Shown here: positions 39,608-40,360 of the stretch, piece by piece | Layout of the letters: every line of letters begins with the position of its first letter | How positions within the stretch are numbered: the first letter of the stretch is position 1 | Assembly: GCF_005862305.2 (NCBI RefSeq) | Contig: NZ_CP054021.1 | Coordinates: 1,240,001-1,304,000, forward strand | Length of the DNA stretch: 64,000 bases | Reading direction: 5' to 3' | DNA from: Rhizobium indicum | GTDB taxonomy: Bacteria > Pseudomonadota > Alphaproteobacteria > Rhizobiales > Rhizobiaceae | Made by a program: the position numbers and the translations under genes | The notes under the pieces: model-generated | The model's input: only the letters and a program-made list of their open reading frames with translations | Told to the model about the DNA's origin: nothing | Database searches by the model: none

Positions 39608-39630
39608 ATATAGCATAGGGGGGTATACTA
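39608..39630. promoter_or_regulatory. DmeR operator candidate (G-tract with flanking TATAGC/GTATACTA)
   Basis: TATAGCATA-GGGGGG-TATACTA has a six-G core flanked by AT inverted repeats, the recognition type of RcnR/DmeR proteins. It directly precedes dmeR, overlapping the probable promoter. Confidence 0.7.
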
Positions 39631-39714
39631 TCAAGGGTGAGGCCAGAGCTCAATGCCTCTGATGGGCTCCGATCCGCCATTGACAAAGCCCGCGTTTCCG
39701 ACGATCTATGATCC

Positions 39715-39819
39715 ATGATCAAGAACGCGCACCAGAGCCGCTCGTATTTTTGGCTGTACCTGTAAAGGGCGGCCGGACAAGATCATATTGTCAACAAGCC
39801 GCCGTCAGGCGGCTTTGTT
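39715..39819 (+). promoter_or_regulatory. Candidate transcription attenuator with aromatic leader peptide, upstream of a GNAT gene
   Basis: A 16-codon frame (39715-39765) encodes MIKNAHQSRSYFWLYL. Just after its stop, GGCGGC (39768-39773) can pair with GCCGCC (39798-39803). That same GCCGCC is the 5' arm of an intrinsic terminator (39796-39803 with 39808-39815, then TTGTT). The two hairpins exclude each other. A ribosome at the stop codon would cover GGCGGC and favour termination, while stalling on Tyr/Phe/Trp codons would free it. TTGACA at 39680 may be the -35 element. No Shine-Dalgarno is evident for the leader; an overlapping 53-codon frame (39709-39869) ends on the GNAT ATG. Confidence 0.5.
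39796..39819 (+). terminator. Intrinsic terminator upstream of the GNAT gene
   Basis: AAGCCGCC-GTCA-GGCGGCTT, extendable over AAC/GTT, is followed by TTGTTGT. No plus-strand gene ends before it, so it terminates a leader or small RNA. Confidence 0.65.
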
Positions 39820-39865
39820 GTATCGGCAGCGTCCTGACGGCAGACTATCAAAGGACGCGAAGACC

Positions 39866-40360
39866 ATGACCGAAATCGAAGACAGCGAAATTTCACTGAT
39901 GCGCCCATCGGTGGTGACGATCCGCGCCGCCAAGCCGCGCGACCTGCCCGAACTCGGCGAGATGATCGCCCTGCTTGCCGCCCATCACGGCGATGCGGCT
40001 GCCACTACGCCGGAGCAGCTGGAGCGCGACCTCTTCGGGCCCCTGCCCTGGATCAATGCGCTCGTCGCCGAGACCAGCGAAGGGCTGATCGGCTACGCCA
40101 TTCTCGTGCCGCTCTACAGGGCGCAGGAAGGCAAGCGCGGCATGGACCTGCACCATCTCTTCGTGCGCGACGGCCATCGCGGCCACGGCACCGGCCAGCT
40201 GCTCGTCGACCGGGCGCGCGAGACCGCCCGCAATGCCGGCTGTGGTTACCTCTCCGTCAGCGCCGCCACCGGAAACGTGCTGGCGCACCGCTTCTACGAA
40301 CAGCTGGATTTCACCCCGCGTCCGGTGACCGGCATGCGCTACATGCAGTCGATCGCTTGA
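39866..40360 (+). CDS. GNAT acetyltransferase
   Basis: The 164-aa protein starts MTEIEDSEISLM at 39866 (AAAGGACGCGAAG upstream). The acetyl-CoA loop is DGHRGHGTGQLLVDRA, and the C-terminal YLSVSAATGNVLAHRFYEQLDFTPRPV is a strong GNAT match. An acidic N-terminus precedes VTIRAAKPRDLPELGEMI. The substrate is unknown; small-molecule amine or antibiotic acetylation is possible. The gene lies behind an apparent leader-peptide attenuator, suggesting control by translation status. Confidence 0.87.
   Translation: MTEIEDSEISLMRPSVVTIRAAKPRDLPELGEMIALLAAHHGDAAATTPEQLERDLFGPLPWINALVAETSEGLIGYAILVPLYRAQEGKRGMDLHHLFVRDGHRGHGTGQLLVDRARETARNAGCGYLSVSAATGNVLAHRFYEQLDFTPRPVTGMRYMQSIA

Follow-up and report, generated by a model that had tools for sequence, protein, structure and literature searches.

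The region between positions 39680 and 39866 of the window, the 64,000-nucleotide stretch of Rhizobium indicum DNA analyzed here, is very probably a ribosome-dependent attenuator that senses how well tRNA-Tyr, tRNA-Phe and tRNA-Trp are charged and thereby controls the gene for a GNAT acetyltransferase. As judged by sequence comparison and folding, it would be a new variant of such switches by virtue of its pan-aromatic codons, its predicted leaderless start, its coupling to a GNAT gene, and covariation pointing to a second, translational lock. The features are as follows.

39680-39708, + strand: predicted promoter, with the -35 box TTGACA at 39680-39685 and a -10-like site at about 39703-39708
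39715, + strand: predicted transcription start, from promoter spacing
39715-39720, + strand: element 1, the start-codon region ATGATC, whose partner is 39781-39786
39715-39765, + strand: leader ORF MIKNAHQSRSYFWLYL, 16 codons, predicted leaderless, with its ATG at 39715 and its stop at 39763-39765
39745-39753, + strand: Tyr-Phe-Trp codons TAT TTT TGG, the proposed stalling site
39749-39777, + strand: 1:2-type hairpin of the free RNA, 39749-39761 with 39766-39777 (leader codons against region 2) in the minimum-energy fold
39768-39773, + strand: region 2, GGCGGC, able to pair with region 3 as an antiterminator
39781-39786, + strand: element 1', GATCAT, partner of the start codon
39796-39815, + strand: terminator-like hairpin of region 3 (GCCGCC, 39798-39803) and region 4 (GGCGGC, 39808-39813)
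39801-39809, + strand: terminator arm and loop GCCGTCAGG, alternative partner of element 5
39829-39841, + strand: element 5, in which GCGTCCT (39829-39835, masking the Shine-Dalgarno sequence) overlaps CCTGACGGC (39833-39841, pairing with the terminator loop)
39852-39858, + strand: GNAT ribosome-binding region AGGACGC, partner of element 5
39866-40360, + strand: GNAT N-acetyltransferase gene, 164 aa, PF00583, with its ATG at 39866

A first-pass annotation of this DNA had recognized the leader, the GGCGGC behind its stop codon, an intrinsic terminator and the GNAT gene, and had proposed classical attenuation from them. All four parts are present at the positions listed and are conserved together in the Rhizobiaceae, and the retention of the aromatic codons and of GCGGC in relatives supports the proposed mechanism. 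According to this mechanism, transcription would start at the leader ATG. With aromatic aminoacyl-tRNAs plentiful, the ribosome would reach the stop codon and cover GGCGGC, or would leave and allow the leader hairpins to re-form; the terminator would then form and transcription would mostly end. Should any of the three aminoacyl-tRNAs run short, the ribosome would wait on the Tyr-Phe-Trp codons with GGCGGC free, and the pairing of GGCGGC with GCCGCC would form an antiterminator, letting RNA polymerase read into the GNAT gene. In a second layer, the closed terminator hairpin would leave element 5 masking the Shine-Dalgarno (SD) sequence of the GNAT gene, and in antiterminated RNA the freed GTCAGG would take element 5 instead, upon which the SD would open.

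The element is coupled to its gene. A protein search (E<=1e-30) found an ortholog of the GNAT in 31 of 152 genomes, and a leader match lies directly upstream in all 31. At the DNA level, a search of 151 family genomes matched 25, with the best match starting 1-3 nt from the leader ATG in 15 of these, and a covariance model built from 24 leaders found matches in 135 of 394 family genomes at E<=0.01. Of these matches, 108 span the whole model at E<=2.4e-4, and 107 were used as loci, the match in genome G014 being left out, as were weaker matches, many of them terminator-only. A leader ORF was parsed at 117 loci, other loci having been added to this set, identical sequences over the leader plus 120 nt collapsed, and one locus that failed the terminator pattern (L144) put back; a GNAT ortholog lies downstream in 100 and none in 17. 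The pattern of leader codons followed by GCGGC gave at least 120 matches in named genomes. Among the 120 matches listed, 90 have both a GNAT gene and a -35 box, 5 have a -35 box but no GNAT gene inside the stretch examined, and 25 are without a GNAT gene or a -35 box and look like chance. Carriers among the matches listed include Rhizobium leguminosarum, R. tropici, R. mongolense, Agrobacterium rosae, Ensifer adhaerens, Shinella zoogloeoides, Allorhizobium undicola, Ciceribacter and Martelella lutilitoris, and in S. meliloti strain Ak57 the element lies on pSymB. Records titled Arenimonas sp. (MAG) (L151) and Marinicella sp. W31 (L175) also hold a Rhizobiaceae-type leader and GNAT gene, and are mislabelled, contaminated or the result of transfer.

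At 95 of the 100 GNAT loci, TTGAC(A) lies 34-36 nt upstream of the leader ATG, and at the other 5 this distance is 37-40 nt, in a set for which candidate ATGs with a -35 box were given preference when leaders were picked. The promoter-free pattern of leader codons and GCGGC likewise has a -35 box in 90 of the 90 named GNAT matches listed. A profile of 96 upstream sequences consists of TTGACA, a 17-nt spacer, an AT-containing -10 site, and a C directly before the ATG (96%); the window promoter at 39680-39708 is absent from the output of a simple promoter scan. Because the -35 box sits 34-36 nt before the ATG, the leader mRNA is predicted to be leaderless, the spacing fitting a start at the A of the leader ATG, as reported for S. 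meliloti rnTrpL. An SD before the leader would therefore be unnecessary, and the predicted leaderless start thus explains the missing SD that the first-pass annotation had regarded as a weak point. The same promoter bears on a further concern, that transcription might begin downstream of the terminator, since it places the predicted start at the leader ATG, upstream of that hairpin. The other weak point, a 53-codon frame (39708-39869) overlapping the leader, falls away: considered as a gene, it is open to the GNAT start in just 26 of 97 distinct loci, with an ATG there in 8, and is therefore no conserved gene.

The stem of the terminator-like hairpin (39796-39815) reads AAGCCGCC-GTCA-GGCGGCTT and is followed by the tail TGTTGTATCG. 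The hairpin of the intrinsic terminator claimed earlier is thus present, but its T-tract is weak and imperfect (TTTGTTGT). Such a hairpin with a T-containing tail occurs in nearly all parsed loci, and in related tyrS, trpS and trpE leaders too. When the free RNA is folded, the leader codons lie against region 2, and ATGATC lies against GATCAT (39781). For RNA made as far as 39805, the probability of pairing between regions 2 and 3 (2:3) is 1.0 if a ribosome occupies the aromatic codons, 0.66 if there is none, and 0.0 if it stands at the stop codon. As soon as region 4 exists, the terminator is the favored structure at equilibrium throughout, a stalled ribosome included, and antitermination must therefore be kinetic.

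Covariation was assessed on the GNAT loci, four of the 100 (L036, L139, L141 and L143) being left out for a mis-called start codon and the rest collapsed to 85 distinct loci. The first-pass annotation had suggested looking for covariation in its hairpins, and this was found for the start-codon helix and for two helices formed by element 5, whereas the 2:3 helix shows little because GCGGC and GCCGC hardly vary. The start-codon helix is itself near-invariant, with compensated changes in L138 (ATGATGACG/CGTCATCAT) and L146 (ATGACA/TGTCAT); its own pairing scores 14.75, a value reached by 1 of 5000 permutations, versus 14.07 for crossed partners. This helix would cross the 2:3 helix, and may in this way keep untranslated RNA off.

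For each of the two helices of element 5, with the terminator loop (loop:5) and with the SD (5:SD), own pairing was reached by 0 of 5000 permutations over the 85 distinct loci. The loop:5 pairings found across loci are GCCGTCAGG/CCTGACGGC, GCCGCAAGG/CCTTGCGGC and GCCTTCGGG/CCCGAAGGC, while those of 5:SD are GCGTCCT/AGGACGC, GCATCCT/AGGATGC, CGGCTCCT/AGGAGCCG, GCTTCCC/GGGAAGC and ACTTTCCC/GGGAAAGT. When partners were swapped with those of the nearest relative differing on both sides, own pairing was better in 31, tied in 51 and worse in 3 loci for loop:5, and better in 19, tied in 61 and worse in 5 for 5:SD. Helices of at least 7 contiguous pairs are formed by loop:5 in 65 of 85 loci (fewer pairs in 20), and of at least 5 contiguous pairs by the best helix of element 5 with the SD region in 67 of 85 (fewer in 18); L019 and L089 are among the loci whose best element-5 helix misses the SD itself. 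In the full-length free RNA the GNAT SD is paired with a probability of 0.94. Forcing the 2:3 helix opens it only slightly, the SD being unpaired at 0.33 versus 0.28 on average over the 85 loci, more open by >0.2 in 14 and less open in 4, and folding thus lends weak support to a coupling of the two locks; in the window RNA so forced, element 5 does pair with GTCAGG. By eye, an SD helix can also be seen in L298, L299, L302 and the tyrS leader of the same genome (L328).

The covariation of element 5 with both the terminator loop and the GNAT SD therefore suggests a second, translational lock, which, like the predicted leaderless start and the start-codon helix, goes beyond what the first-pass annotation had described. 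Control of both transcription termination and SD access, as proposed here, is also exerted at the TRAP-regulated trp leader of B. subtilis, where TRAP is a tryptophan-binding protein; in the window element the sensor would be the ribosome. If the second lock holds true, the element would be a ribosome-sensed switch acting on transcription and translation through one hairpin loop, a form of dual control otherwise known, to our knowledge, from protein- or ligand-sensing leaders.

The codons of the leader point to the signal. The homologous leaders comprise 72 distinct sequences of 16 or 17 codons, and in 71 of the 72, Y, F and W all fall within the last eight residues, in the order YFW in 62, WYF in 8 and WFYY in 1, with YF alone in 1. 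Conservation of the leader codons, for which the first-pass annotation had proposed a test at synonymous sites, is thus confined to the aromatic end: codons 3-10 drift without visible amino-acid constraint, with 198, 162 and 166 differences at codon positions 1, 2 and 3 and 95 synonymous versus 337 non-synonymous codon changes in 137 close pairs. Since the identity of the stop-proximal codons is kept while the peptide drifts, the sensing of tRNA charging is favored over a nascent-chain or drug sensor, and general slowing at the aromatic codons, whatever its cause, would act too. At the motif, 68 of 71 leaders use TAT TTT, while elsewhere in these leaders 62 of 63 Tyr and Phe codons are TAC or TTC.

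Related leaders lie before other genes, and their codons usually appear to fit the gene downstream. Leaders carrying YY, FYY or YFYY precede tyrS (TIGR00234) at 12 loci (L065, L126, L328, L066, L067, L070, L073, L074, L124, L125, L127 and L128), and at 4 more, tyrosine leaders precede a gene with a TyrRS/TrpRS domain (PF00579) and an S4 domain. The tyrS leader of the same genome, MTCARTLSSFYYSLLP (L328, G000:C1:4705835-4705950), has a terminator and, by eye, the SD helix GGTCTCC/GGAGACC. A YF leader stands before a tRNA-synt_1b gene that reads as tyrS (L298), and YY leaders stand before prephenate-dehydrogenase-type genes (L311 above the cut-off, L318 below it, L069 and L071 by PF02153, and L334). 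WW leaders precede trpS (L303, L313), the WWW leader MIKSLNIAVWWWVR precedes trpE in the same genome (L356), and the YFWYFY leader MITVATSYFWYFSYDSLLAAGGSRSI precedes a DAHP synthase gene (TIGR00034; L347). The pathway shared by all three amino acids begins with DAHP synthase, and the Y, F and W codons at this one locus therefore support a response to general aromatic shortage; the class II DAHP synthase gene of the genome that holds the window has no leader of such kind in roughly 300 nt upstream. In other orders of the class, WYF leaders precede GNATs with 27-28% identity to that of the window (L299, L300, L302 and L310). The tri-aromatic (F, Y and W) leaders MIRSARPQTFGYWRFR and MTTIAAPMLAKFYWRFL precede isochorismatase-domain genes (L344-L346, L350 and L352), confirmed by Pfam except at L345.

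A match between codons and function is thus seen in most related loci (tyrS, prephenate dehydrogenase, trpS, trpE and DAHP synthase). Against a strict match, one trpS leader (L316) has FYW rather than WW, a YY leader at L027 has no tyrS behind it, and a YF leader (MENTKIHINAYFTSSK, L312) lies before a short ORF with an S4 domain, which may be a TyrRS-like tail standing alone. A class-level search added 6 matches, of which L301 has no leader ORF. Another 40 matches were examined, of which 20 have an aromatic leader before a named gene, 4 of them repeating earlier loci, with L338 and L345 assigned by likeness only and the longest ORF at L345 matching no family; the other 20 consist of bare terminators or of short ORFs with no nameable gene. 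Because the models were built from aromatic leaders, the matches are biased towards such leaders; which aromatic residue goes with which gene is not forced by this bias. As further observations, tyrosine leaders at L131 and L125 precede shorter tyrS-like frames, and at L315, L317, L342, L348 and L355 a hairpin follows short ORFs whose last residues read EFYSR, EYYSR or MYYS with one more residue, with no nameable gene downstream.

As in the design proposed here, the position of the ribosome on regulatory codons selects between antiterminator and terminator in the trp, phe and his attenuators of E. coli, the leaders of which, in contrast, possess an SD and runs of codons for a single amino acid, where the window leader is predicted to be leaderless and is tri-aromatic. 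The closest known relative, though not the family of the window element, is taken to be the rhizobial trp attenuator. As described in the available portions of the sources, the trpL/rnTrpL attenuator of trpE(G) in S. meliloti consists of a leaderless short ORF (encoding the 14-aa peTrpL) with consecutive aromatic codons, a terminator and an antiterminator (PMC10117765, PMC7298713), all of which the window element shares, its leaderless start, terminator and antiterminator being predicted. The window element differs in having Tyr, Phe and Trp codons rather than Trp alone, in targeting a GNAT gene rather than trpE, and in its strong covarying SD helix. The model of GNAT-leader type also finds the trpE leader of the same genome (L356, E 0.006). 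This trpE leader (L356:1517-1612, G000:C1:4031625) is a true match to the Rfam family RF02552 (RcsR1) at 111.8 bits, and the RcsR1 sRNA family and the trp attenuator are therefore one locus here, RcsR1 being an older name of rnTrpL. The window element itself matches RF02552 over its full length and far below threshold, at 17.7 bits versus a gathering cut-off of 60, and its membership in RF02552, RNAI, STnc50 and isrK was rejected, all scores lying below the cut-off. In the literature consulted, including passages of PMC10117765, PMC2965389 and PMC7298713, start-site and sORF supplementary tables aside, no such GNAT leader and no tyrS or trpS leader of like kind was found, which leaves absence from the literature unproven.

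The sequence of the leader could in principle arise as a short ORF that happens to lie next to an unrelated terminator. Short ORFs are indeed common, with 324 ATG ORFs of 12-22 codons on the two strands of the window. However, the leader is the only one of these whose last eight codons include Y, F and W. Its stop is moreover followed within 12 nt by GCGGC, and it is accompanied by a terminator and a correctly spaced -35 box, the sole such composite in the window. Among 11,177 such ORFs from 30 first-order Markov windows, the aromatic codons were present in 12 and were joined by GCGGC in 0. Taken with conservation over many genera, the fixed codons, the covariation and the gene coupling, this control makes coincidence next to impossible. 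A different question is whether control is mainly translational, with the hairpins serving to mask the SD and the terminator-like hairpin terminating little. The imperfect T-tract, the covarying SD helix and the high pairing of the SD in free full-length RNA would suit such an arrangement, but it is unlikely, given that the hairpin and its T-containing tail are retained at almost every parsed locus, as well as in the tyrS, trpS and trpE leaders akin to it, and that forcing the 2:3 helix changes SD access little.

The first-pass annotation had named aminoacyl-tRNA shortage or a ribosome-targeting drug as the inducer, and the two have fared differently. Shortage is favored by the fit between the codons of related leaders and their genes. 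A drug sensor of the ErmCL/CatL kind, in which a ribosome-targeting compound and the nascent peptide would stall the ribosome and induce a resistance acetyltransferase, is very unlikely, despite the occurrence of resistance enzymes among GNATs, weak family matches to aminoglycoside and streptothricin acetyltransferases that fall far below curated cut-offs, and a role of the S. meliloti peTrpL in an antibiotic context, as indicated in the available part of PMC7298713. The conserved nascent peptide of a drug-inducible arrest leader was not found here, since the N-terminus drifts, codons 3-10 lack amino-acid constraint and the aromatic residues are permuted; moreover, related leaders precede aminoacyl-tRNA synthetase and aromatic-pathway genes with fitting codons. 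The likeness to the rhizobial trp attenuator, in which both the rnTrpL RNA and the peTrpL peptide act in trans (PMC7298713, in the part available), and the match of RF02552 to the trpE leader of the same genome raise the further idea that the terminated RNA or the 16-aa peptide acts mainly on other targets, with control of the GNAT gene secondary. This is highly improbable: the N-terminus of the peptide is not conserved, the element is coupled to one gene in 31 of 31 genomes, and the conserved pairings all lie inside the cis leader. The preferred reading thus remains that of a cis-acting attenuator that would respond to the charging of the three aromatic tRNAs.

The product of the controlled gene is a GNAT by PF00583 (49.1 bits versus a cut-off of 20.7), with PF13508 and PF13673 above cut-off too, and its structural model has a pLDDT of 90. 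By fold, the protein comes closest to a P. aeruginosa GNAT, to SSAT and to thialysine acetyltransferases; the structures 2fe7, 3bj7 and 2bei have TM scores of 0.76-0.79 by query length, and the nearest PDB sequences, 2fe7 and 12jc, belong to the same group, to which identity is about 25-29%. Acetylation by this enzyme of an aromatic analogue, or of a compound that inhibits the shikimate pathway or an aminoacyl-tRNA synthetase, would fit the signal, and is put forward as speculation. The attenuator would thereby give a GNAT that is widespread in rhizobia a testable input signal, aromatic aminoacyl-tRNA shortage, and hence a handle on its substrate.

The related leaders further suggest that the rhizobial trp attenuator belongs to a family of leaders with codons that mostly correspond to the gene behind them, namely tyrS, trpS, prephenate dehydrogenase, DAHP synthase or a GNAT gene. 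Extending this, we tentatively propose, as a possibility that falls short of being probable, that leaderless attenuators form a so far unrecognized family in the Alphaproteobacteria, with codons (Tyr; Trp; Tyr, Phe and Trp) that would name the gene below. The tri-aromatic form would be an OR-gate for shortage of any aromatic aminoacyl-tRNA, as caused by a block in the shikimate pathway or in an aromatic aminoacyl-tRNA synthetase; it would be double-locked, once at transcription and once by an element alternating between the terminator loop and the SD, and would drive an amine N-acetyltransferase that neutralizes a compound encountered in soil, either an aromatic-amino-acid analogue or one inhibiting the shikimate pathway or an aminoacyl-tRNA synthetase.

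The leader region sits between the GNAT gene and a divergent pair encoding a CsoR/RcnR-type repressor (PF02583) and dmeF (NF033827). In the 90 named GNAT loci listed, each spanning at most 8 kb, dmeF occurs in at least 37, a cytochrome c in at least 58 and a LysE exporter in at least 28, and these neighbors gave no functional clue to the GNAT. Before the divergent pair, ATAGCATAGGGGGGTATACTATC at 39610-39632 resembles an operator of its CsoR/RcnR-type repressor. The database GNAT proteins P0057, P0068 and P0119 start with MSTSRRQAA or similar, that is, at a TTG before the terminator (compare the 190-aa ORF; 39788-39865), and their starts were therefore probably annotated too early. Elsewhere in the window, the Rhizobiales sRNA Atu_At1 (RF02496, 77.9 bits) lies at 1889-1995 on the - strand.
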